From Methylococcales bacterium (lineage in GTDB: Bacteria; Pseudomonadota; Gammaproteobacteria; Methylococcales; Methylomonadaceae), in NCBI GenBank assembly GCA_026399075.1, contig JAPLRR010000030.1, positions 19,579 through 83,578 of the forward strand: 64,000 bases of DNA, given 5' to 3'. Positions 28,600-40,840 of this stretch are shown here, in pieces. Every line of letters starts with the position of its first letter. Within the stretch, counting starts at the first letter, position 1. The translations under genes and the position numbers were made by a program. Below the pieces are notes generated by a model, which worked only from the letters and a program-made list of their open reading frames with translations, made no database searches and had not been told where the DNA came from.

Positions 28600-28878
28600 A
28601 TGATAACCGGCGCTATAAATTTAGGAATATGGACAATACTTTTTTTTGTTATCGGCATGTACAGGCCACGGTGGCCTTTGTTCTTCATGAAAGAACCCAG
28701 CCGATTCATTATTGTCTTGGTGGCCACCGTTTTATTTATGGTCACAGCAACCCTCTATGGTGAAGGCCTGCGCCGGGAAAAACTGGAAAAAGCCGTTAAA
28801 GAAAAAGCTACCCAAACCATCGCTCCAGTGCCTGTCCCCGTCCCTGTTCCTGCACCCGAAAAACCAGCGGCTAAGTAA
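28600..28878 (+). CDS. Small membrane protein with proline-rich tail
   Basis: 92 residues with two membrane helices (about 5-20 and 35-52) and a charged stretch followed by a V-P repeat tail (VPVPVPVPAPEKPAAK). A TTGACA lies at 28550-28555, but the -10 is poor. No family recognised. It is divergent from the SPFH operon. Confidence 0.6.
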   Translation: MITGAINLGIWTILFFVIGMYRPRWPLFFMKEPSRFIIVLVATVLFMVTATLYGEGLRREKLEKAVKEKATQTIAPVPVPVPVPAPEKPAAK

Positions 28879-30420: not shown

Positions 30421-31881
30421 ATGGCATACCTCAAAAACTTCCAACACGATGTGTTTATCAGCTACGCCCATAATGACAACAGTGGCGGCTGGGTAAAAGC
30501 ATTTAAAAATCAGCTCAATGATGTGCTTATTGAACATCTGGGCAGCAAAGACGTGAAGATTTTTTTCGATGACCAACTACAATCCAACCATCCCTTAGAC
30601 AGATTTGTTAAAGCTGCCGGACAATCAGCCTTATTTCTCGCCCTTGCCTCACCATCTTATGTCAACAGCGCCGCCACGAAAGCAGAATACCAAGCGTTTG
30701 TTACCAGCAATGTGACAGAAGACTGTTTATTTACCATCGAATTGCTGCCTCTGTCAGACGACGACTTCACAAGCTACCCCAAAATAGCCCAACAAATTCG
30801 CACCCGCTTTTACCAGCCCATTGCGCATGAAGTCGCACAAAAGCTACCAGCCAACACTGAGGCGATTAACAAGCAGATAAACATCCTTGCTGCACATATT
30901 TGCCAACAGCTAAAAGCCATGGCTAAGCCCGTGTCTAAGCCCGTGTCTAAGCCCACAAGCAACACCACTTATGTCCCCAACTGCCAGTATGATGTGGTGA
31001 TTAGCCATACGGCGGAAGATGCCGCATGGGCCCAGCAACTGCTGGCAGACCTCAGCAAGCAACTCACCCAAAAACTAGGCACGATAGACGGCTTTCGGCT
31101 GCTAGCCACTGCCGACACCGATCCGCTTAAAGAAGCTGCCAGCCTAGTCATAGTCGGCTCGCCGCCTAGCTTTAACGATAGCGACTATGTGGAAAAAATC
31201 GCCCACCATAAAGACCAGCCGCTGTTTTTAGCCTTAAGCACAGACGGCGCATTGCCAGCACCCTTATTAGGCTTAAAAAATTTAACACGCATACGGTTTT
31301 GGGATTACAACCAAACCGGCCAGCCAGACTTATTAAGGGATGATGCTTATTTTGCCGCCACCGAAAAATTAGCCACCGCGCTAAGCAGCCAGTTAAAAGA
31401 CATCAAACTACAACAAGAACACTGGCTTAAACAGGAACAAGAGCGCCTAAAACAACAGCAAACACGCAGCCAGCCTAGTGTGGATGCCTTTGTGTTCTTG
31501 CACAGTGCGCAAGAAGACATTCCGCTACGCCTTGAAATAGTCGCCTTATTACAGCAACAAGCCATCGACTACATCTTGCCCATAGAACATAACCCGCACA
31601 TCACCCCTAGCGACATCCGCCTAGATGTAGAAAACAACATCGTAAACTGTGATGCCATCTTACTGATTTATGAACAAAGCAACCCCGTTTGGGTGCGCGA
31701 ACAACTGTCCATTTGCCGCCGCATACAACGTAAACGCGAAACCCCGCTAAAAATAATCGCCGTCCATAAAGCCCACGATAAACCCAGCCTGGACGTGCAG
31801 CTTAGCAACCTGACCATTTATGATTGTCCGCCGGAGCATATCGACAGCTATCTACAAAAATTTATTGCGGCCTTGGTCTGA
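30421..31881 (+). CDS. Triple TIR-domain protein
   Basis: 486 residues containing three TIR or TIR-like units. TIR 1 (about 1-150) opens HDVFISYAHNDN and has SPSYVNSAATKAEY, where Glu89 is at the place of the NAD-hydrolysing glutamate. Unit 2 (about 188-320) opens YDVVISHTAEDAAW and has VGSPPSF. Unit 3 (about 353-486) opens DAFVFLHSAQEDIPLRLEI and has NPVWVREQLSICRRI. A linker with the repeat KPVSKPVSKPTS joins units 1 and 2, and a Gln/Lys-rich coiled stretch joins 2 and 3. Bacterial TIRs degrade NAD or make cyclic ADP-ribose signals in antiphage defence. It is followed, after a repeat array, by a giant nSTAND gene in the same direction. Confidence 0.85.
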   Translation: MAYLKNFQHDVFISYAHNDNSGGWVKAFKNQLNDVLIEHLGSKDVKIFFDDQLQSNHPLDRFVKAAGQSALFLALASPSYVNSAATKAEYQAFVTSNVTEDCLFTIELLPLSDDDFTSYPKIAQQIRTRFYQPIAHEVAQKLPANTEAINKQINILAAHICQQLKAMAKPVSKPVSKPTSNTTYVPNCQYDVVISHTAEDAAWAQQLLADLSKQLTQKLGTIDGFRLLATADTDPLKEAASLVIVGSPPSFNDSDYVEKIAHHKDQPLFLALSTDGALPAPLLGLKNLTRIRFWDYNQTGQPDLLRDDAYFAATEKLATALSSQLKDIKLQQEHWLKQEQERLKQQQTRSQPSVDAFVFLHSAQEDIPLRLEIVALLQQQAIDYILPIEHNPHITPSDIRLDVENNIVNCDAILLIYEQSNPVWVREQLSICRRIQRKRETPLKIIAVHKAHDKPSLDVQLSNLTIYDCPPEHIDSYLQKFIAALV

Positions 31882-31925
31882 TGCCGATGTTTTGCGTTAC
31901 TGCCCAAAGCATAGCGGAGTAAAAA

Positions 31926-32345
31926 ATTGTCATCGTTCCCATGCTCTGCGTGGGAATGCAGCAACAGACGCTCCAGCGTCTTCTTGGCGTTTGTGTTGCG
32001 CATCAGTTCCGCAACGCAGGAGCGTTGCGGGATGAATTCCCACGCGGAGCGAGGGAACTATAGAAAATTGTCATCGTTCCCACGCTCTGCGTGGGAATGC
32101 AGCAACAGACGCTCCAGCGTCTTCTTGGCGTTTGTGTTGCGCATCAGCGCCGCAACGCAGGAGTGTTGCGGGATGAATTCCCACGCGGAGCGTGGGGACT
32201 ATAGAAAATTGTCATCGTTCCCACGCTCTGCGTGGGAATGCAGGCAACAGACGCTCCAGCGTCTTCTTGGCGTTCGTGTTGCGCATCAACACCGCAACGC
32301 AGGAGCGTTGCAGGATGAATTCCCACGCGGAGCGTGGGAACTATA
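31926..32345. repeat. Three tandem 141-bp palindromic repeats
   Basis: Three copies start at 31926, 32067 and 32208. Each opens ATTGTCATCGTTCCCA and closes with TTCCCACGCGGAGCG(T/A)GGGAAC. The CCCACGC...GCGTGGG stem lies at both ends, and inner palindromes (GACGCT-CCAGCGTC, CCGCAACGC-GCGTTGCGG) nest inside. Copies differ by a few bases, including one inserted base in copy 3. No spacers are present, so it is not a CRISPR. It fills the gap between the TIR and nSTAND genes. Confidence 0.9.
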
Positions 32346-32432
32346 AAAAACTATAAAGGGAAGGGTCTTAACTCTGCCCACACGGCGACAAACCAACAAA
32401 CCAAAAACATAGCAACACTAAACCGGGTCACC

Positions 32433-35400
32433 ATGAACACCACCCCCTACATAGGCTTACGTCCGTTTGAACGCCACGAAACCGAACTGTTTTTTGGCCG
32501 CGAACAACACAGCGATGAACTGATAGCCCGCTTGGGTAGCCATCGGTTTTTGGCGGTTATCGGCAATTCCGGTTGCGGCAAATCGTCTTTAGTAAAAACA
32601 GGCTTAATAGCGGGTTTGGAAGCGGGCTTTTTAGCCACGCCTAGCAGCTATTGGCGCATTGTCGAAATGCGCCCCGGCAACCATCCGTTCAAAGCCTTGG
32701 CAGAACAACTACTCAGCGTGTTGCAGCCCGAACTTGCCCAACACCACACTGCCGCCAGCCTAGAGCAACGCCTACGCCTAGGCTCGCTCAGCTTGCACGA
32801 ATTGCTCGCCGAATACCCGCCCGCCAACAACGCCCAATTGCTGATTGTTTGCGACCAATTTGAAGAAGTGTTCCGCTATGCCGAACAAGGCGCAGCCTTA
32901 GAAGCGGCCTTGTTTGTGGGCTTATTGCTCGCCAGCAGCACGGCCTATCCGCTGGCTGCTGAACACATCTCAGACCGCATTTATGTGGTCATCACCATGC
33001 GTTCGGATTTTTTAGGCGATTGCGCCCAATTTGCAGGTTTAGCCGAAGCCATCAACCAAGGGCTATACCTCACCCCGCGCCTGAACAGCCAACAACTGCG
33101 CGCTGCGATAGAAGAACCTGCTTTTGTGTGCGACGGCGACATAGAACCCGCACTGGTTAGCCAATTGTTGGACGATGCCGACACCAACCCCGACCAACTG
33201 CCCTTGCTGCAACACAGCCTGATGCGCTTATGGAATTTGGCTAATCCCACCAATCCAACACCTTCGCCAATGGGAGAGGGCAGGGAGAGGGTTCCCCAAC
33301 TCACCCTAGCCCATTACCACCAACTCGCTAACGCCCACGAATCTAAACACGAAACCGACGGCCTTAACTTCCTTAGCCTCATCTTATCCAACCATGCCGA
33401 CGAAGTTTACAACGCCCTAAGCCCACGCCAACAAACCCTAGCCGAACACCTGTTCCGCCTACTGACCGCACAAGACCTAGAAAAACGCGATACCCGCCGC
33501 CCGCAAACCTTGGCAAAACTGGTCCATAGCAGCCAAAGGCCGTACCTAGAAGTCATCGCCGTGCTTGATGCGTTCCGGCAACCCGGCTGCGGCTTTTTGC
33601 TGCCGCCCAGCCAACAAGCCTTAAGCGAAAACCAGCCCGACACGATTATCGACATCAGCCACGAAAGCCTGATTAGGCATTGGCAACGCTTACAAAAATG
33701 GATAGCAGACGAAGCCGAACAACTGAAAAAATACCAACGCTGGCTAGATGAAGCCACGCGCCGCCAATACCAAGACGGCTTTACTAACTTATTAGAATCC
33801 CCCGAATTGGAACCCGCTGAAGCTTGGCTAAGCCAATTTAAACCCACAGCAATCTGGGCGGCCCGTTACACCCAAAACACCGTCGAAAGCACACTCCCCG
33901 AACACCAAGCCGCTGACGACATCCGTCTGTTAGAACACTACATCAGCCTCAGCCGCACAGCCAAAGACCAACAACTCGCCGAGCAACAACACGCCCAACA
34001 ACAAAAATTAAGGCTAGCGCGGCGGATTAACCTAGGTGCAGGCTGTGGCTTGCTGATAGCCGCAGGGCTGACCTATTGGGCCATGCAAGAACGCCAACAC
34101 GCTGAAGATGCAGAACAGCAACGCACGACCGAACTCTATCAAGCCCAGCTCACCCACGCCGCCTTATTGGCAAAAGGCGAAGATTACGCCGGGGCAAAAA
34201 CCATCTTAGCCAAAACCTACGCACTCGATAAAACCATCCCCGCCAGCAAACAACACCAACGCAATTTGCTGGCAAGCTTTAGCTCGCTTAAAGGCGGGGC
34301 TGCCGAACAAGTGTATGAGGGCGCGGGTTATCCTTTGTACACGGTTGCCGTCAGCCCCGATGGGCAAACGCTGGCGGCAGCCGGCGAACACGGTACTCTG
34401 GTGATTTTTGAGGTGGCGACGGGTAAGTTATTACAGCGTTTGGTTGGACATGCGACGGAGGGGACGGGGACTGGCACTGATAGCATCAGCAGCATTGCCT
34501 ACACCCCCAACGGTACACAACTCATCAGCGCAGGTGAAGATAAAAAAATCATCGTTTGGCAACTAGATGCCCACCACCAGTTTAGCCAACTAACGGCTTG
34601 GCAAGCCCCCGATAAAGTATGGGCTATCGCGATCAGCCCCGATGGCCTGACGCTTGCCAGTGGCGGCGATGATAACAACATCAGCTTATGGGAGTTAACA
34701 ACCGGCAAACTCAAAAACACCTTAAAAAAACATAGCAAGACGATTGCTATGCATGGGCTTAGCTTTAACGCGACTGGCGAGTTACTGGCGAGTGCCTCTT
34801 ATGACGATACGGCGATAATTTGGCAAGTGTCTACAGGCCAGCCACGCCAGGTTTTACAAAGCCATACGGGTGATGTAAATGCCGTTGCCTTTAGCCCCGA
34901 CAGTCAAACTGTGCTGACAGGCAGCGAGGATAAAAGCTTGCGCTTATGGTCGGTAGTCACAGGCAAAGCGTCAGCTATAGTTTTAAACGGGCATAACAAC
35001 AACGTGTTTGCCGCCCAATTTTTAGGCAAAGGCGATTATCTGCTGTCAGGCAGTGATGACCGGACACTCCGGCTTTGGGATACCCGCAGTGGCGTTAGCT
35101 TACGGCTATGGCAAGGCCATACGTCTGGCATAGGCCAATTGGCGACCTATGCCAACCAACTGTTTTCCGCCAGTAAAGATGGCACTGTGCGGCGTTGGGA
35201 TTTGGCCTTGCCTTATCAACAAAACCTAGTATTAGCTAATGAAGCTGATAGCGCGGCGATCAGCCCCGACTTAAGCACGGTTGCGGTCGGTTTTGCCAAT
35301 GGCGGCTTATCGCTCTATAACCCTGACACGGGGCTGGAGCTTGCGCAGCAAACCTCAGCCCATGAAAATGTGATACAACGGCTGGTGTTTAATTCCACAG

Positions 35401-37259
35401 GCGAGTTATTGGCATCTGGCAGTTTTGACTATATCGCCAAAATCTGGCGGCTTAAGGCGGCTAAGTCAGCATGGGGCTTACAAGAGCAAGCGACTCTTAC
35501 AGGACATACCGATGCTATCCACGGCCTAGCCTTTGCCCCCGATAGCCTCAGCCTAGCCACTGCCAGTTATGATGGCCAGATAGGTTTGTATAACTTAAGC
35601 CAGCCAAACCAACCCCAGTTGTTTAAAGCCCATGAAGGACGAGTTGCCAGCGTCGTATTCAATAACAGCGGCACCCAGCTATTAAGCAGCGGTATAGATG
35701 ATAGGACCAGCAAATGGTGGGATATAACAACCCAGCCCGCCACTTTACTCAGCGAACTGCCTAAAGCTAAGGATGGCATAATGTGGGCCAGCCTAAGCCC
35801 CGACCAGCAATGGATTAGCCGGGTAGGCCGTGGCTCGAATGTTAGCCTGTTCAACACCCAAACCCAGCAGTCCCTCGCCTTAGTCGGGCATGAGCGTACT
35901 GTTTGGAAAGCCCTATTTAGCCCCGACAGCAGCACATTGGCTACGGTAAGCAGCGATGCCACGGTTAAATTTTGGACTACTGATGTAGGCAGTGAGTTGT
36001 TTAGTTTGAGGTTGCCGACTAACGTCGGCTTTCCGGTTTCGCTATGGGATTTTGATTTCCGTTGCCTAAATGTGTGCCGCGTGGCAGTGCCGCTAACAGC
36101 AGGGCGTTTGCTGTTATACCAATTTGCCTATCAAGATGCTTTGGATTTTAACCACGACCTTAACGAACAAAAACGCACACGCTTAGTGTTATGGCAAGAT
36201 TATTTGGCTAAAACCAGCACCTTGCTACAACAAAATGCCTTAGCCGCCGCACAACAAGCCTACCGCGAAGCCGACACCTTAGGCCAGCCTTTGCTTAAGC
36301 AATACCCTGATGACGTGCAAATCCAAGAAGCCGCGCAACTAAGTTATCAACTTCAAGAAATATTACAAGAACCGCCAGGCAAGCGCTCTGCCGCCATATC
36401 CGCCTATCAGCTGGCCTTGGCTAATGCAGAAAAAGCACTAAACAATAGTGCGGACAAATCAGCGGCCTTAAGTGATTTACTAACAGTGGCTGACGCTTAC
36501 AGCAGCGCATTAAGAACCCAAAACCCAAAAGCTGATCTGAATGCCTTGCAACAAAAGGTGTTGGCCTTGCCTTTGCCTAAGGCCAGTTTGCTGGTCGCCC
36601 GAGCGAAATGGGCCAACCGCTTACAGCTACAAGCCGCTGTGGATAAGGATTTGTTGCAAGCCGCTAGCCTAGCCGACCGCACCAATGCCGATGAATTAAA
36701 CAGCGTAGGTTATGACCTTGCGACCTTAAGCAAGCACTATGCAGCCGCTTATCCCTTGCTGAAACAGGCTTATGCCTTAGATCCCAATAATGCCTTTGTG
36801 ATGGACAGTGTGGCTTGGGTGCTGCATAACTTAGGCCACAGCCCATTGGCCTGGTCATATTTACAAGCCGCGACCTGCCGGGAAGACCAGTTATCCGCAT
36901 CAGCCAAAACCGAAGTGATTGACCATAAACGTGCGGTGTTATCGGCATTAGGCAAATCAAAACCAGCACCGTCCGCCTGTGAGCAAGTGCAAGTCCAAAA
37001 CGTGCTGGCGGCTAGCCAAGCCGAGGCTTTAGGCATTTTAGCGGGTGATGTGTTGCTTAGTTACAATGGCAAAGCCATTCTTAATAAGGATGAATTTATT
37101 AAAAGCCGCGAACCAGAAAAACCCAATACCGCACCGAAAAAACTTATCGTGCAACGGCAAGGCAAGCCCTTAAGCTTTGCGGTTAAAGCGGGTAAAATCG
37201 GGGTAGATTTAAAAGACGTGCCGATAACCCCACCGCCCTTGCCAGAACACTTGGAGTAA
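32433..37259 (+). CDS. nSTAND ATPase with 14 WD40 repeats and PDZ-like tail
   Basis: 1608 residues from the ATG at 32433 (GGGT upstream); an upstream start at 32334 would run back into the repeat array. The order is: a conserved nSTAND1 opening YIGLRPFERHETELFFGRE; Walker A GNSGCGKSS (44-52); Walker B with DQFEE (141-145); a winged-helix-like stretch to about 500; one membrane helix (about 533-552); 14 WD40 blades (about 625-1233), enough for two seven-bladed propellers; a helical, TPR-like region (about 1240-1510); and a PDZ-like domain (about 1515-1600, with LGILAGDVLLSYNGK). STAND proteins are ATP-dependent switches that oligomerise on sensing a trigger. The membrane helix implies that the ATPase and propellers face opposite sides, which is unusual. 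Neighbours are TIR and SLOG genes. Confidence 0.85.
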   Translation: MNTTPYIGLRPFERHETELFFGREQHSDELIARLGSHRFLAVIGNSGCGKSSLVKTGLIAGLEAGFLATPSSYWRIVEMRPGNHPFKALAEQLLSVLQPELAQHHTAASLEQRLRLGSLSLHELLAEYPPANNAQLLIVCDQFEEVFRYAEQGAALEAALFVGLLLASSTAYPLAAEHISDRIYVVITMRSDFLGDCAQFAGLAEAINQGLYLTPRLNSQQLRAAIEEPAFVCDGDIEPALVSQLLDDADTNPDQLPLLQHSLMRLWNLANPTNPTPSPMGEGRERVPQLTLAHYHQLANAHESKHETDGLNFLSLILSNHADEVYNALSPRQQTLAEHLFRLLTAQDLEKRDTRRPQTLAKLVHSSQRPYLEVIAVLDAFRQPGCGFLLPPSQQALSENQPDTIIDISHESLIRHWQRLQKWIADEAEQLKKYQRWLDEATRRQYQDGFTNLLESPELEPAEAWLSQFKPTAIWAARYTQNTVESTLPEHQAADDIRLLEHYISLSRTAKDQQLAEQQHAQQQKLRLARRINLGAGCGLLIAAGLTYWAMQERQHAEDAEQQRTTELYQAQLTHAALLAKGEDYAGAKTILAKTYALDKTIPASKQHQRNLLASFSSLKGGAAEQVYEGAGYPLYTVAVSPDGQTLAAAGEHGTLVIFEVATGKLLQRLVGHATEGTGTGTDSISSIAYTPNGTQLISAGEDKKIIVWQLDAHHQFSQLTAWQAPDKVWAIAISPDGLTLASGGDDNNISLWELTTGKLKNTLKKHSKTIAMHGLSFNATGELLASASYDDTAIIWQVSTGQPRQVLQSHTGDVNAVAFSPDSQTVLTGSEDKSLRLWSVVTGKASAIVLNGHNNNVFAAQFLGKGDYLLSGSDDRTLRLWDTRSGVSLRLWQGHTSGIGQLATYANQLFSASKDGTVRRWDLALPYQQNLVLANEADSAAISPDLSTVAVGFANGGLSLYNPDTGLELAQQTSAHENVIQRLVFNSTGELLASGSFDYIAKIWRLKAAKSAWGLQEQATLTGHTDAIHGLAFAPDSLSLATASYDGQIGLYNLSQPNQPQLFKAHEGRVASVVFNNSGTQLLSSGIDDRTSKWWDITTQPATLLSELPKAKDGIMWASLSPDQQWISRVGRGSNVSLFNTQTQQSLALVGHERTVWKALFSPDSSTLATVSSDATVKFWTTDVGSELFSLRLPTNVGFPVSLWDFDFRCLNVCRVAVPLTAGRLLLYQFAYQDALDFNHDLNEQKRTRLVLWQDYLAKTSTLLQQNALAAAQQAYREADTLGQPLLKQYPDDVQIQEAAQLSYQLQEILQEPPGKRSAAISAYQLALANAEKALNNSADKSAALSDLLTVADAYSSALRTQNPKADLNALQQKVLALPLPKASLLVARAKWANRLQLQAAVDKDLLQAASLADRTNADELNSVGYDLATLSKHYAAAYPLLKQAYALDPNNAFVMDSVAWVLHNLGHSPLAWSYLQAATCREDQLSASAKTEVIDHKRAVLSALGKSKPAPSACEQVQVQNVLAASQAEALGILAGDVLLSYNGKAILNKDEFIKSREPEKPNTAPKKLIVQRQGKPLSFAVKAGKIGVDLKDVPITPPPLPEHLE

Positions 37260-37338
37260 AACGGCTTTAGACGTTTTACGAGGCAGCACGGCAATTTTTT
37301 TCGTTCCCAAACTCTGCTTGGGAACAAGGCAGACTGTA

Positions 37339-37433
37339 GAGACGCGATTTATCGCGTCTCCAATAGCGACCCAATTGCTGACGGAAACGCGAATATTACA
37401 GACGTGATAATCCAGACGCGATAAATCGCGTCT
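37339..37433. repeat. GACGCGAT palindromes
   Basis: Two perfect palindromes, GAGACGCGATTTATCGCGTC (37339-37358, extending to 37360) and AGACGCGATAAATCGCGTCT (37414-37433), lie 54 bp apart and are themselves inverted relative to each other. A CGTTCCCAAACTC hairpin precedes them at about 37304. They stand between the nSTAND stop codon and the 131-bp tandem array. Confidence 0.75.
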
Positions 37434-37535
37434 CTACGGTGTTCGTTCCCAAACTCCAGCGCGGCACCCACGTTATGCCGGAAACGCCGCCTTTCGCTTA
37501 CGCTCAAAACGGCTTATTCCGGCCTACAACCAGAT

Positions 37536-37999
37536 TTGGAGTAAAACGGCTTTAGACGTTTTACGCGGCGGCACGGCAATGTCTAAAGCCATTGCACTCC
37601 AGCAAGTTGTGCGTATGAAACGCACATGGGTAGCTACCCATGTTTTATCCGAGTTGTAGGTTAGGCTTGGAGTAAAACGGCTTTAGACGTTTTACGAGGC
37701 AGCACGGCAATGTCTAAAGCCATTGCACTCCAGCAAGATGCGCGTATGAAATGCACATGGGTAGCTACCCATGCTTTACCCGAACTGTAGGTTAGGCTTG
37801 GAGTAAAACGGCTTTAGACGTTTTACGGGGCGGCACGGCAATGTCTAAAGCCATTGCACTCCAGCAAGTTGTGCGTATGAAACCCACATGGGTAGCTACC
37901 CATGTTTTACCCGAGCTGTAGGTTAGGCTTGGAGTAAAACGGCTTTAGACGTTTTACGGGGCAGCACGGCAATGTCTAAAGCCATTGCACTCCAGCAAG
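37536..37999. repeat. Tandem 131-bp palindromic array (3.5 copies)
   Basis: Copies start at 37536, 37667, 37798 and 37929; the last stops after 71 bp. Each unit has two hairpins: TGGAGT(AAAAC)GGCTTTAGAC pairing with GTCTAAAGCC(ATTGC)ACTCCA, and a perfect ATGGGTAGCTACCCAT. A fifth, partial copy begins at 37251, and the nSTAND stop codon lies inside it. Copies diverge slightly, most in the linker. There are no spacers. Confidence 0.9.
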
Positions 38000-38086
38000 A
38001 CGCGCGCACCCTGCGTTGATACCTGCGCCTAAGCCAACGCTTGAACCGTATGCGACAATTTGCCAACACAACCAGAGCAAACCATT

Positions 38087-39958
38087 ATGTCAAACAAAAC
38101 CCAAACCATCGATTACCGCCCGCGTTTAGCCTTGCAAATCGGCGTGACCGGACACCGTGAACTTAATTTGGATGAAGCTGGCGAAGCGGCTTTGCTGGCA
38201 AGTATCAGCTCTGTGCTGAAACGCCTCAACGACGCTTATCAGGCACTTGCCCAAACTACCGAAGCGAAGGCGCAATTTAGCCCGCAAGCACCCTTGCCAC
38301 CGCGTTTATTGTCGCCCTTGGCAAAAGGGGCGGATAGTTTGGCGGCACGTGCGGCCTTGGTTAATCAGTTTGAACTGCATTGCCCTTTGCCATTTCCCCG
38401 TGCAGTGTATGAAGCTGATTTTGATGAGGCCAGCTTGCCCGTGTTTACCGAGTTATGGGGCAAAGCCAAACGCAGGCTAGAGTTGGACGGGGTGCGGGAA
38501 CTGGAAGAGCAAGCTTACCGTTATTTGGGGCGTTTTGTGTTGCGCCATGCGGATATTTTATTGGCCGTATGGGATGAAATAGATCATAAAAATACGATTG
38601 ATATGTCGCCAGGGACGGAAGGCGTGGTGGCTGAGGCCTTACGTGTGGGTTTGCCGGTTATTTTGATTAACCCTAGCCACCCCACCATCATTAAATACCA
38701 TGACCCGCGTATAGAAGAACAAGTCTGGCAAGTGTGCGACGATAGCAAAACCGAGGATTTATTGCGCTGGCGTTTGTTGCAGACTGAATCCGCAGCGACA
38801 AAAACGAGCCGCTGGGAACGGTTATTGGGTGTCGAAAACCATTTTTGCTTAGCCTATTTTAATCATAAAGAACCTGGCAGAACCCTGATGGGCAGCGTCT
38901 ATCGGACGCTATTTGCATGGGTGGGCAAGCACGATTTCTATCCCCGCAGCATGATAGGCAAGCGCTACGACCAAGATGCCAATGAGCAATGGCATGAACT
39001 TGCTGATGCGGCTAAGGCTAAGCTACCAGTGAGCGACACTACCGGACAGCACTTTATCCATGCGGACAGTTTGGCCAGCCATTACGCCGACCGTTATCGA
39101 GGTACCTTTGTGACCACGTTTACTTTAGGTGCAGTGGCGGTGTTGCTGGCGCTGTTGGTTGCGCCTTTTAAAGATTTTCATGGACCTGAATGCCTATTTT
39201 TAACGGAAACGGATTGGTTGGCAAAGTTGGTCTCCTTGCTATTAACCTGGGGTGAGCTGGGTATTATCTTATTCATTGCCTTGCTGGTTTTAAATGGTCG
39301 GGTTTATAACTTTCACCAACGCTGGGTGGATTTTCGGCTCTTGGCAGAACGCTTGCGCCATTATGCGTTTTTGACACCGATTGGTGGCGTGTCACATACC
39401 GCGCAATCGGTGTTTGATGAGGATGATGACCAGGCTTTTAGCTTGGTGGATTGGCTGGCTCGTGCGCTCAGCCGTGCCGAAGGCATCCCCAACGTCAGTT
39501 TTAATGCGGATTACCGTAAAGCTTACCAAGACTTTTTAAAAGCCGTCATTAACGACCAAGCCCAATATCATAAAAACAACCACACGCGTAACCACCGTAT
39601 CGCGCAAACCTTGCATGGTTTGAATGTTGTGCTGTTATTTATTATTGGGCTGGCTTGTGTGGCGCACATTTATTTTCACCATTTGGCGGTTTATTCAACC
39701 ATCATCGCCGCTGTGCTACCTGCTGTCGGCGCGGCCGTTGCTGGCGTGTTGAGCCAAGGCGAGTTTGAACGGGTCGCCAAACGTTCTAAGGGCATGCACA
39801 AACATCTGGAACGCATTATTGGGCAACTGGACAAAAATCGCGATGCAACGGTTTTAGAACTCGCCGAACAAGCCCAACGCGCCATAGACACCATGAGCCA
39901 AGAGCTTTACGACTGGCGGGTGATTTTTCGTGGCAAACCCTTGGAACAACACGCATGA
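38087..39958 (+). CDS. SLOG-domain protein fused to a four-helix membrane (SLATT-like) region
   Basis: 623 residues from the ATG at 38087. The N-terminal Rossmann-like domain has GVTGHRE (19-25), SPLAKGADSLAA (76-87), DILLAVWDE (156-164) and GTEGVV (176-181), the nucleotide-binding motifs of SLOG (LOG/DprA-type) proteins. Residues 338-555 hold four membrane helices (about 340-362, 381-403, 509-530, 535-555), and the end is a charged helix (SQGEFERVAKRSKGM onwards). This matches SLOG plus a SLATT-like 2TM effector arrangement in conflict systems, where a bound nucleotide signal is thought to drive membrane disruption. The start is weakly supported (GAGC upstream). Its stop overlaps the RyR gene start. 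Confidence 0.75.
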   Translation: MSNKTQTIDYRPRLALQIGVTGHRELNLDEAGEAALLASISSVLKRLNDAYQALAQTTEAKAQFSPQAPLPPRLLSPLAKGADSLAARAALVNQFELHCPLPFPRAVYEADFDEASLPVFTELWGKAKRRLELDGVRELEEQAYRYLGRFVLRHADILLAVWDEIDHKNTIDMSPGTEGVVAEALRVGLPVILINPSHPTIIKYHDPRIEEQVWQVCDDSKTEDLLRWRLLQTESAATKTSRWERLLGVENHFCLAYFNHKEPGRTLMGSVYRTLFAWVGKHDFYPRSMIGKRYDQDANEQWHELADAAKAKLPVSDTTGQHFIHADSLASHYADRYRGTFVTTFTLGAVAVLLALLVAPFKDFHGPECLFLTETDWLAKLVSLLLTWGELGIILFIALLVLNGRVYNFHQRWVDFRLLAERLRHYAFLTPIGGVSHTAQSVFDEDDDQAFSLVDWLARALSRAEGIPNVSFNADYRKAYQDFLKAVINDQAQYHKNNHTRNHRIAQTLHGLNVVLLFIIGLACVAHIYFHHLAVYSTIIAAVLPAVGAAVAGVLSQGEFERVAKRSKGMHKHLERIIGQLDKNRDATVLELAEQAQRAIDTMSQELYDWRVIFRGKPLEQHA

Positions 39959-40251
39959 GCGCTTATCTACCCCAGCCGATAGACACCTCGGCTGTCAGCC
40001 TAAGCCCCGATATTTTGCAACTGACCGAACAGCTCGCCGAAAACGCCCATAACCAATGGGCGCAACAACGTTTGCAATCGGGTTGGCGCTATGGTGTTAC
40101 GCGTGATGATGCCCATAAAACCCACCCTTGCCTAATCTCTTATGATCAATTGCCCGAATCCGAAAAAGACTATGACCGCAACACGGCTATGGAATCGTTA
40201 AAAGCGATAGTGGCTTTGGGTTATCGGATTATTAAGGAACCTAGTGTTTAG
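39955..40251 (+). CDS. RyR-domain protein
   Basis: 98 residues almost wholly made of an RyR (ryanodine receptor repeat) domain: LSPDILQLTEQLAENAHNQW, then WRYGVTRDD and SYDQLPESEKDYDRNT with MESLKAIVALGYRI at the end. RyR domains in bacteria and phages are small helical modules predicted to bind ligands or modified nucleotides. Its ATG lies within the last four bases of the SLOG gene (ATGA), so the two are translationally coupled. The N-terminal tail of about 15 residues is not conserved in any pattern I know. Confidence 0.85.
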   Translation: MSAYLPQPIDTSAVSLSPDILQLTEQLAENAHNQWAQQRLQSGWRYGVTRDDAHKTHPCLISYDQLPESEKDYDRNTAMESLKAIVALGYRIIKEPSV

Positions 40252-40337
40252 GGTGAAATTCCTTCCACATCACCTTCTTTATTCCCGATTAAGGCCGGAC
40301 AAAAATTTCAGCCTAGCGCTTGCCATGCCATCCGGCT

Positions 40338-40365
40338 TTGTTGATTTGCTGTTTGCGCGTATAAT
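40338..40365 (+). promoter_or_regulatory. Putative promoter of RND operon
   Basis: TTGTTG at 40338-40343 and TATAAT at 40360-40365, 16 bp apart, 61 bp before the ATG at 40427. The -10 is perfect and the -35 weak (three of six). No clear metal-responsive operator is visible around it. Confidence 0.4.
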
Positions 40366-40426
40366 TTGGCAATCTAGCCTGAATGTTTTGGGTTTGTTGG
40401 TAAATTTTAATAAAGCCGCTCTTACT

Positions 40427-40840
40427 ATGTTTTCAGCACTTCGCCTTTCCATAGTCATTTTTCTGACGCTGTTGCAATTTATTGCACCGTTGGTACATGC
40501 CCATGCGAACGGGCCTGTGGCAAAACAGGGCTTGCATGTGCCAGGATTGGAAAATTTCAGCGCCCAACAGCACACCGCCCAGGCATTGCCCTTGGATTTG
40601 GGGGTAAACGGCGTAATGGTGGTTGTTGATAGCGGCATTAAACAACAACGGACAGCTTTAAACACCGCCGATCAAACCCCTTATTTCCTGCTTCCGCAGA
40701 CCTTATCCTTTAGTTCAGCTACTGCCCGACAACAAGACACCAACTTTTCCCCGCATCAGCAGGCGGCTGTCCACCACGTTTTTAGCACCGCAAACTCCCC
40801 GCGCGCACCACCAACCCATCAAGTACCCGAGTTTTTTTAG
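40427..40840 (+). CDS. Small secreted protein before the RND genes
   Basis: 137 residues from the ATG at 40427 (no good ribosome site; an upstream frame to 40244 gives no secretion signal). The N terminus MFSALRLSIVIFLTLLQFIA is a signal peptide ending HAHA. The mature part contains scattered histidines (LVHAHAN, LHVPG, QQHTAQ, PHQQAAVHHVF) and no cysteine. Comparable small proteins sit at the head of HME-RND operons, but no family is recognised. Low-confidence metal-binding role. Confidence 0.55.
   Translation: MFSALRLSIVIFLTLLQFIAPLVHAHANGPVAKQGLHVPGLENFSAQQHTAQALPLDLGVNGVMVVVDSGIKQQRTALNTADQTPYFLLPQTLSFSSATARQQDTNFSPHQQAAVHHVFSTANSPRAPPTHQVPEFF

Follow-up and report, generated by a model that had tools for sequence, protein, structure and literature searches.

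A recurrent association of TIR, nSTAND1-WD40, SLOG-SLATT and RyR genes in a Methylococcales bacterium and its possible role in anti-phage signalling

Introduction

Here we describe four genes located at positions 30421-40251, on the plus strand, of a 64,000-nucleotide stretch of DNA from a Methylococcales bacterium. This whole stretch is hereafter called the window (G000:C35:19579-83578; the genome comprises 4.08 Mb in 111 contigs). The genes encode, in this order, a TIR protein, an nSTAND1-WD40 protein, a SLOG protein containing four hydrophobic segments, and a RyR protein. We show that the association is real, that it recurs within the conflict network of TIR, STAND and SLOG proteins, and that the grouping is not due to chance; the RyR partner is unusual. 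TIR-nSTAND and SLOG-RyR each form a coherent pair, and the two pairs are repeatedly, not obligatorily, found together. From comparisons of sequences we propose, with a probability of roughly 0.43, that the four genes may constitute a single anti-phage alarm, in which the nSTAND1 protein would be the sensor, TIR would provide the signal, and the SLOG-SLATT protein, together with RyR, would be the effector.

Results

An earlier note, based on the sequence of the window only, had recognized TIR, nSTAND, SLOG-membrane and RyR domains on four plus-strand genes, and a 4-bp coupling between the SLOG and RyR genes. Our domain searches confirmed both points; the RyR start at 39955 overlaps the SLOG stop at 39958. 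The genes and their domains are as follows.

30421..31881, plus strand: TIR gene, 486 amino acids (Pfam TIR_2; predicted model; conservation of E89)
30421-30924, plus strand: TIR1, with the catalytic E89 codon at 30685-30687 (Pfam TIR_2)
about 30982-31458 and about 31483-31878, plus strand: the two TIR-like domains that follow TIR1 (predicted model)
32433..37259, plus strand: nSTAND1-WD40-PDZ gene (Pfam nSTAND1 and WD40; weak HtrA/DegQ PDZ matches)
about 32445-33761, plus strand: nSTAND1 ATPase domain (Pfam nSTAND1, 1.4e-88)
about 34476-36053, plus strand: WD40 propellers (Pfam WD40, 6e-78)
about 36993-37187, plus strand: weak PDZ (weak HtrA/DegQ PDZ matches)
38087..39958, plus strand: SLOG-SLATT gene, with an alternative TTG start at 38060
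about 38126-38692, plus strand: SLOG domain
about 39107-39751, plus strand: membrane region of SLATT/DUF4231 type, containing four hydrophobic segments
39955..40251, plus strand: stand-alone RyR domain (R12 type), 98 amino acids (Pfam RyR, 1.5e-35)

Recurrence of the association

SLOG-SLATT neighbourhoods were sampled as the best 80 of 257 loci, in which genes were called and scanned with TIR, nSTAND, RyR and WD40 profiles. A SLOG gene was called in 76 of the 80 loci, and the distance counts use these 76. These loci also served to iterate the TIR profile; ten of the calls made with it were checked by Pfam, and all were TIR_2 above the cut-off. TIR genes are strongly concentrated near SLOG-SLATT genes: 43 were found within 5 kb (612 kb of sequence) versus two at 5-10 kb (486 kb), which corresponds to an approximately 17-fold density. 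Likewise, eight RyR genes and four nSTAND genes were present within 5 kb versus none of either at 5-10 kb, the RyR counts being slightly low because one RyR open reading frame (ORF) was missed by the gene caller and its locus, L064, was counted as RyR-less, here as well as in the tree and in the RyR alignment described below. The distance between TIR and SLOG in the window is 6.2 kb, i.e. beyond the 5-kb bin.

According to their titles, 32 of the 80 loci belong to Sphingomonadales. Because of this surplus, the number of changes was determined on a SLOG tree with 83 proteins, among them those of the window and of hand-added loci (5 of 88 loci were left out). TIR, present in 43 rows, required 17 changes versus a shuffled mean of 27.8, and RyR (12 rows) required 7 versus 11.4. 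The seven nSTAND rows required 7 changes versus 6.8 and are thus scattered; they fall in six separate clades, with the window and L100 sharing one. RyR is present in all four rows of the window clade (window, L101, L013 and L100), of which L101, the nearest in the tree, was scored as nSTAND-less as its contig ends. Elsewhere in the tree, we observed a SLOG-SLATT clade in Marinicaulis/Parvularculaceae (L024, L029-L032, L055, L062 and L066) for which no TIR, nSTAND or RyR was called within 5 kb.

When the sampling was centred on RyR, at least one of TIR, nSTAND or SLOG-SLATT was present on the fetched stretch in seven of ten non-window genomes: TIR in G174 and G326, TIR-nSTAND1 in G574, nSTAND in G523, and SLOG-SLATT in G513, G468 and G718. 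None of these partners was found on the stretches from G497, G633 and G450, the last being a 3.5-kb contig. The nSTAND calls in G523 and in locus L018 were made by our own profile, not by Pfam. The TIR-centred sample comprised six of the seven non-own genomes with a match, a weak match in G084 being left out, and nSTAND was located downstream on the same strand in all six relatives (with a 302-amino acid ORF in between in L127).

The earlier note had named, as speaking against a single system, homologues that never occur within 20 kb of each other. The genomic half of this comparison was run and did not refute a single system, with TIR, nSTAND and SLOG-SLATT together in five loci. In L014 (uncultured proteobacterium) and L067 (Bradyrhizobium stylosanthis) the TIR and nSTAND1 genes adjoin on one strand and SLOG-SLATT is divergent; the nSTAND1 protein of L014 carries WD40 repeats and that of L067 weak TPR. 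On plasmid pSBC2-4 of Caballeronia sp. SBC2 (L146), SLOG-SLATT, TIR and nSTAND1 with weak WD40 are consecutive on one strand, and an IS3 transposase lies 1.5 kb on from this block. L018 (Acidobacteria) contains SLOG, SIR2-TIR and nSTAND, and L015 (Gammaproteobacteria) contains, on one strand, SIR2-TIR, nSTAND1, an unknown gene, SLOG, TIR-PDZ and TrkA_N-RyR. Moreover, nSTAND1-TPR, SLOG and RyR are collinear in L100 (G084, from another family of the same order), and in L110 (G574) TIR, nSTAND1 and WD40 form a single protein of 1614 amino acids, with a RyR protein encoded one gene away on the opposite strand. RyR, an intervening gene and SLOG-SLATT form one run in L112 (7551-12924) and L113 (3330-8742); the intervening gene was identified, in L112 only, as encoding a patatin-like phospholipase. 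In Caballeronia sp. SBC1 (L168, 5972-7591), the TIR gene is annotated as two ORFs, which are a single ORF in SBC2; the SLOG and WD40 neighbours in the two strains share protein accessions.

The TIR gene and its exchangeable N-terminal enzyme

TIR1 matches Pfam TIR_2 at 2.7e-15. The predicted model of the whole protein (predicted local distance difference test score of 83) contains three alpha/beta units, and its best PDB matches are the plant TIR-NLR RPP1 and TIR domains. The three TIR or TIR-like units counted in the earlier note are better described as one TIR that is likely catalytic (TIR1) and two TIR-like domains that are probably adaptors. Among the three units, the catalytic glutamate is present in TIR1 only. 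In an alignment of 16 of the 20 homologous proteins, E89 is kept in all ten TIR-bearing rows, including the window. In the remaining six rows (P0051-P0054, P0056 and P0057) the N-terminal part could not be aligned as TIR and the C-terminal TIR-like pair is kept. Three of them (P0052, P0054 and P0057) contain a CHAT domain according to precomputed annotation, and Pfam found CHAT in three further relatives of the TIR gene (L127, L128 and L130). Hence, the N-terminal enzyme swaps between TIR and a CHAT protease while the TIR-like pair stays, and this retention suggests that the two C-terminal domains are probably adaptors.

It has been reported that ThsB requires the catalytic glutamate of its TIR domain (PMC10022894). 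Since TIR1 keeps this residue, it is predicted, by analogy, to make an ADP-ribose-type product. The TIR gene matches the PADLOC candidate model PDC-S66 at 4e-8; the ThsB models match it weakly (E-values of 0.005-0.04), and there is no match to the ThsA model. No match to the TIR gene was found on plasmids at 1e-5.

In genome G001, which belongs to the same genus, the homologous proteins are 43% (TIR), 94% (nSTAND, N-terminal part, L126), 85% (nSTAND, C-terminal part) and 77% (SLOG) identical to those of the window, and RyR is present as well. The TIR protein adjoining the highly similar nSTAND sequence thus looks as if its gene had been replaced or had diversified on its own. The C-terminal nSTAND piece of G001 (L132, on G001:C218) contains one in-frame stop, and this copy may therefore be inactive or misassembled.

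The nSTAND1-WD40 gene

The ORF opens at a GTG codon at 32334; the ATG at 32433 is preferred, and homology begins at residues 23-38. The protein combines an ATPase having a Walker A motif (GNSGCGKS, at residue 77) with a C-terminal repeat sensor, as is characteristic of STAND proteins. An N-terminally fused effector, another STAND feature, was not found in the window, where the enzyme is encoded by a separate gene. By analogy, we infer that the nSTAND1-WD40 protein could be the invasion sensor.

The SLOG-SLATT gene

The SLOG domain belongs to the SLOG superfamily, with its Rossmann fold. For the membrane region, one of two curated cut-off sets supports assignment to SLATT: NCBIfam SLATT_1 was passed (43.6 bits, cut-off 41), and the Pfam cut-offs were narrowly missed (25.8 versus 26.3 for SLATT_1, and 23.1 versus 24.7 for DUF4231). 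In LOG phosphoribohydrolases, the catalytic glutamate lies in a GTxxE motif. None of the 34 rows of the SLOG alignment (34 of 44 homologues) has a glutamate in that column, so that the domain does not qualify as LOG and is likely a binder. No SIR2 or macro domain was matched in the four window proteins using Pfam and further domain libraries. The SLOG domain of ThsA is reported to bind 3' cyclic ADP-ribose (3'cADPR) (PMC11204291), and SLATT has been predicted to be a nucleotide-responsive pore (PMC7159879, PMC9503650). By likeness to these, the SLOG domain studied here is predicted to bind the TIR product, and the SLATT region to breach the membrane. The SLOG of ThsA was not among the 50 entries listed, a listing that cannot rule it out.

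The nearest SLOG relatives with named records come from a Methylococcaceae bacterium (77%) and from Methylovulum (56%). SLOG matches were found in 7 of 101 relatives and are strong only in G000 itself, G001 and G084; within the genus, 2 of 35 genomes have matches of at least 77% and 6 of 35 have any match. A prophage or phage origin was considered and set aside; viral contigs contain 16 weak relatives of SLOG, whose best segments show 23-33% identity.

The RyR gene and its putative ligand residues

The RyR protein of the window clearly belongs to PF02026 (121.8 bits, cut-off 27.4), and its PDB relatives are ryanodine receptors and the one-domain putative ryanodine receptor 3nrt. According to a 2026 preprint, 2'/3'cADPR are bound by RyR-domain proteins of phages and hydrolysed by one of these, RyDEP, whose pocket contains H75, W78, H100 and D117, with H75/D117 as the catalytic residues (PMC13232231). 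In the window protein, H32, W35, H57 and D74 correspond to this tetrad with identical spacing (3/22/17). The tetrad is complete in all seven distinct stand-alone RyR domains aligned (window, L002, L071, L082, L013, L003 and L097) and, for fused or longer proteins, is present in the better repeat of L071, L072, L098, L109, L110, L111, L112, L113 and L114. Beside SLOG in L015, L016, L071 and L072, we found fusions in which a single hydrophobic segment is followed by TrkA_N and RyR; two of them (L015 and L016) have lost tetrad residues. Based on the overlapping genes and on the presence of these fusions beside SLOG, RyR is predicted to be a ligand-binding partner of SLOG-SLATT.

RyR is rare: it was found in 4 of 369 genomes of the class and in 8 of 398 of the phylum, both counts including the genome of the window. 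In the Chloroflexia contig L064, the RyR ORF (2379-2723) overlaps the end of the SLOG gene. Relatives are found in 112 phage records (for example L148, 2836-3708), including 39 from Pseudomonas phages and 24 from Arthrobacter phages; in Pseudomonas phage Baskent_P6 the RyR gene is located among structural genes.

Surroundings of the four genes

Two repeat arrays lie between the genes.

31940..32350, no strand: 141-bp repeat, present in three tandem copies that separate TIR from nSTAND (14 matches in own genome)
37260..38060, no strand: intergenic region between nSTAND and SLOG, in which a 131-bp unit is repeated about 3.5 times (37541-37999; 64 matches in own genome)

Relatives of both units are dispersed through the genome. 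G001 carries the 141-bp repeats between TIR and nSTAND, and members of the 131-bp family follow nSTAND and precede SLOG there. An ORF of 139 amino acids (31927-32346) was rejected as spurious because it lies on the dispersed 141-bp repeat.

The genes flanking the island are, according to Pfam, housekeeping and efflux genes. Ten flanking proteins were scanned against PADLOC and none matched at 1e-3 (the small ORFs 28600-28878 and 40244-40840 were left out), and hence the near flanks gave no sign of a larger defence island. ORF 40244-40840 has a homologue (45% identity) beside OEP in G001 and is therefore likely part of the RND operon. We also considered a simple empty site in G001, where BrkB and the RND efflux operon are present on one contig that lacks the island. 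However, their order differs, so that no clean insertion site could be shown.

Discussion

How the four genes might work together

Based on these results and on the biology of related systems, the alarm could operate as follows. The WD40/PDZ part of the nSTAND1 protein would detect a phage product, upon which the ATPase would oligomerize, by analogy with other STAND proteins. The TIR-like pair would then dock on nSTAND1 as adaptors and gather copies of TIR1, which, using Glu89, is predicted to convert NAD+ into a cADPR-like product. SLOG would read this signal and gate the four-segment SLATT region, with RyR as a predicted ligand-binding regulatory subunit of this membrane effector. Finally, the resulting membrane breach would abort the infection.

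Weighing the alternatives

Several observations weigh against this proposal. TIR is located within 5 kb of SLOG-SLATT in 41 of the 76 loci and not in the other 35, some of which are on short contigs. No SLOG or RyR was found on any of the six TIR/CHAT-nSTAND stretches, three of which are contigs of 6.6-8.2 kb, and five of those six genomes contain no SLOG match anywhere (the search for RyR covered the stretches alone). Conversely, L013 (Methylovulum) has SLOG-RyR without TIR or nSTAND, with a DUF4062-TPR-PDZ gene nearby instead. In G001, the four genes are spread over three contigs, together with the intergenic repeats of the window, and their collinearity is inferred. As for the ligand, tetrad residues are lost from the longer RyR proteins of L015, L016 and L115, which are encoded beside SLOG, and from that of L099. 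Animal RyRs are reported to keep the tetrad as well (PMC13232231), and it therefore indicates an adenine-type ligand at most, not cADPR alone. RyR domains may also read other nucleotides, as suggested by a stand-alone RyR, 55% identical, on a plasmid of Priestia aryabhattai (L165, 5995-6279). The gene immediately preceding it encodes an adenylate/guanylate cyclase; both belong to a run of genes on one strand that includes a Pycsar-type effector, and a TIR gene is found 1.4 kb further on. The earlier note's view that all four genes form one system is thus supported by the recurrent neighbourhoods and by L015, where all four domain types are present, and is weakened by the six stretches and by L013.

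The four genes might, then, represent two independent neighbouring conflict systems, of which one, TIR-nSTAND1, would act as an abortive-infection pair and the other, SLOG-SLATT-RyR, as a membrane unit responding to a separate trigger. Each pair is indeed found alone, and about 800 bp, mostly repeats, parts nSTAND from SLOG in the window, while SLOG and RyR overlap. However, we regard this as rather unlikely, given that TIR, nSTAND and SLOG-SLATT come together in five other lineages, that the ten flanking proteins lack a PADLOC match, and that SLOG and RyR domains elsewhere have been reported to read TIR products (PMC13232231, PMC11204291). A different role for RyR would be that of a brake, sequestering or hydrolysing the TIR product to protect against killing by a leaky TIR, like a RyDEP owned by the host. 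Phage RyR domains are reported to work as a sponge or as a glycosidase, and the window protein keeps both catalytic residues of RyDEP (H75/D117 correspond to H32/D74) as well as the two binding residues. Yet the same report describes eight tested phage homologues of which six bound and none cleaved the ligand, despite high sequence conservation (PMC13232231), and the TrkA_N-RyR fusions behind one hydrophobic segment fit a gating domain; a brake therefore seems unlikely to us.

TIR1 clustered by nSTAND1 might also kill directly by depleting NAD+, with no relevant signal and SLOG-SLATT as a mere neighbour. In the same TIR-like adaptor frame TIR swaps with a CHAT protease, a direct-acting effector, and SLOG is absent from three CHAT and three TIR stretches alike; TIR-nSTAND occurs alone in L129 and L131, in genomes lacking a SLOG match. 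The strong concentration of SLOG-SLATT beside TIR genes of several architectures makes this explanation improbable. Even less probable is housekeeping nucleotide signalling, i.e. control of membrane potential or ions without an anti-phage role. The TrkA_N-RyR proteins of the relatives resemble ion-channel regulation, and housekeeping and efflux functions are encoded next to the four genes, but the patchy distribution (a close SLOG in 2 of 35 genus genomes), the plasmid carriage, the fast divergence of TIR beside a conserved nSTAND (43% versus 94%) and the swapping of TIR and CHAT enzymes all argue against it.

Implications

According to the report of May 2026, cADPR made by TIR proteins is bound or destroyed by RyR-domain proteins of phages (PMC13232231). 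This raises the question of what role RyR has in cells, and the bacterial RyR genes described here are located beside TIR, STAND and SLOG-SLATT. This location, and the overlap with the gene of a putative membrane effector, make the idea that RyR reads ADP-ribose signals directly testable. The single-alarm proposal further suggests that TIR-SLOG signalling may be driven by a separate STAND sensor and may end in membrane breach, not in NAD+ loss. One may speculate further, as a long shot, that bacterial RyR domains would be host-side receptors of TIR-made cyclic ADP-ribose, and that RyR and SLOG, which are the ADP-ribose-linked modules of animal ryanodine receptors and TRPM2, would form a ligand-gated membrane breach fired by STAND-activated TIR. 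This would be a prokaryotic forerunner of ADP-ribose-gated channel signalling, and phage RyDEP proteins would be stolen copies of its RyR reader.

Comparison with known systems

Burroughs et al. (2015) reportedly described SLOG, SLATT and TIR in shared neighbourhoods of a nucleotide-centred conflict network, with SLATT as a predicted pore; the genes studied here additionally include nSTAND1-WD40 and RyR. The combination of TIR, nSTAND1-WD40, SLOG-SLATT and RyR was undescribed in the literature searched, a search outside which directly relevant works fell. Its unfamiliarity, mentioned in the earlier note, holds to this extent; the general TIR/SLOG/SLATT network had been predicted before.

The locus shares with type I Thoeris (ThsB TIR and ThsA SIR2-SLOG) a TIR with a catalytic glutamate and a SLOG domain in the putative effector. 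It differs in having no SIR2 NADase, in the fusion of SLOG to four membrane segments, and in the presence of a separate nSTAND1-WD40 gene and of a RyR gene. Because neither a SIR2-SLOG nor a TM-macro (transmembrane-macro) ThsA effector was found and the ThsB models match weakly, short of a curated-model match, we do not class it as Thoeris, although it resembles Thoeris in its proposed TIR-to-SLOG logic. In Thoeris systems with a TM-macro ThsA, too, the effector is a membrane protein, and an ADP-ribose derivative produced by the TIR protein has been proposed to open it (PMC11204291); the reader is a macro domain there and SLOG (and RyR) here. No CD-NTase or nucleotide cyclase, as in CBASS or Pycsar, is present in the four proteins, and the ten flanking proteins have no PADLOC match.

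Effectors of peptidase or TIR type, together with adaptor domains, are found in reported STAND conflict systems (PMC10907252). Like these antiviral, bacterial NLR-like systems, the locus has an nSTAND1 ATPase with a C-terminal repeat sensor, and TIR, nSTAND1 and WD40 are fused in L110. Unlike them, it has the enzyme on its own gene with two TIR-like domains, and membrane SLOG and RyR neighbours. With RyDEP (PMC13232231) it shares a PF02026 domain with the H-W-H-D ligand residues at identical spacing; here, however, this domain is encoded by a bacterial gene that overlaps a membrane SLOG gene near TIR, and it likely serves defence, not evasion. Finally, the animal channels TRPM2, which contains SLOG and is gated by ADP-ribose, and the ryanodine receptors are comparable in their SLOG and RyR domains, respectively, with the proteins described here, which are separate and small.

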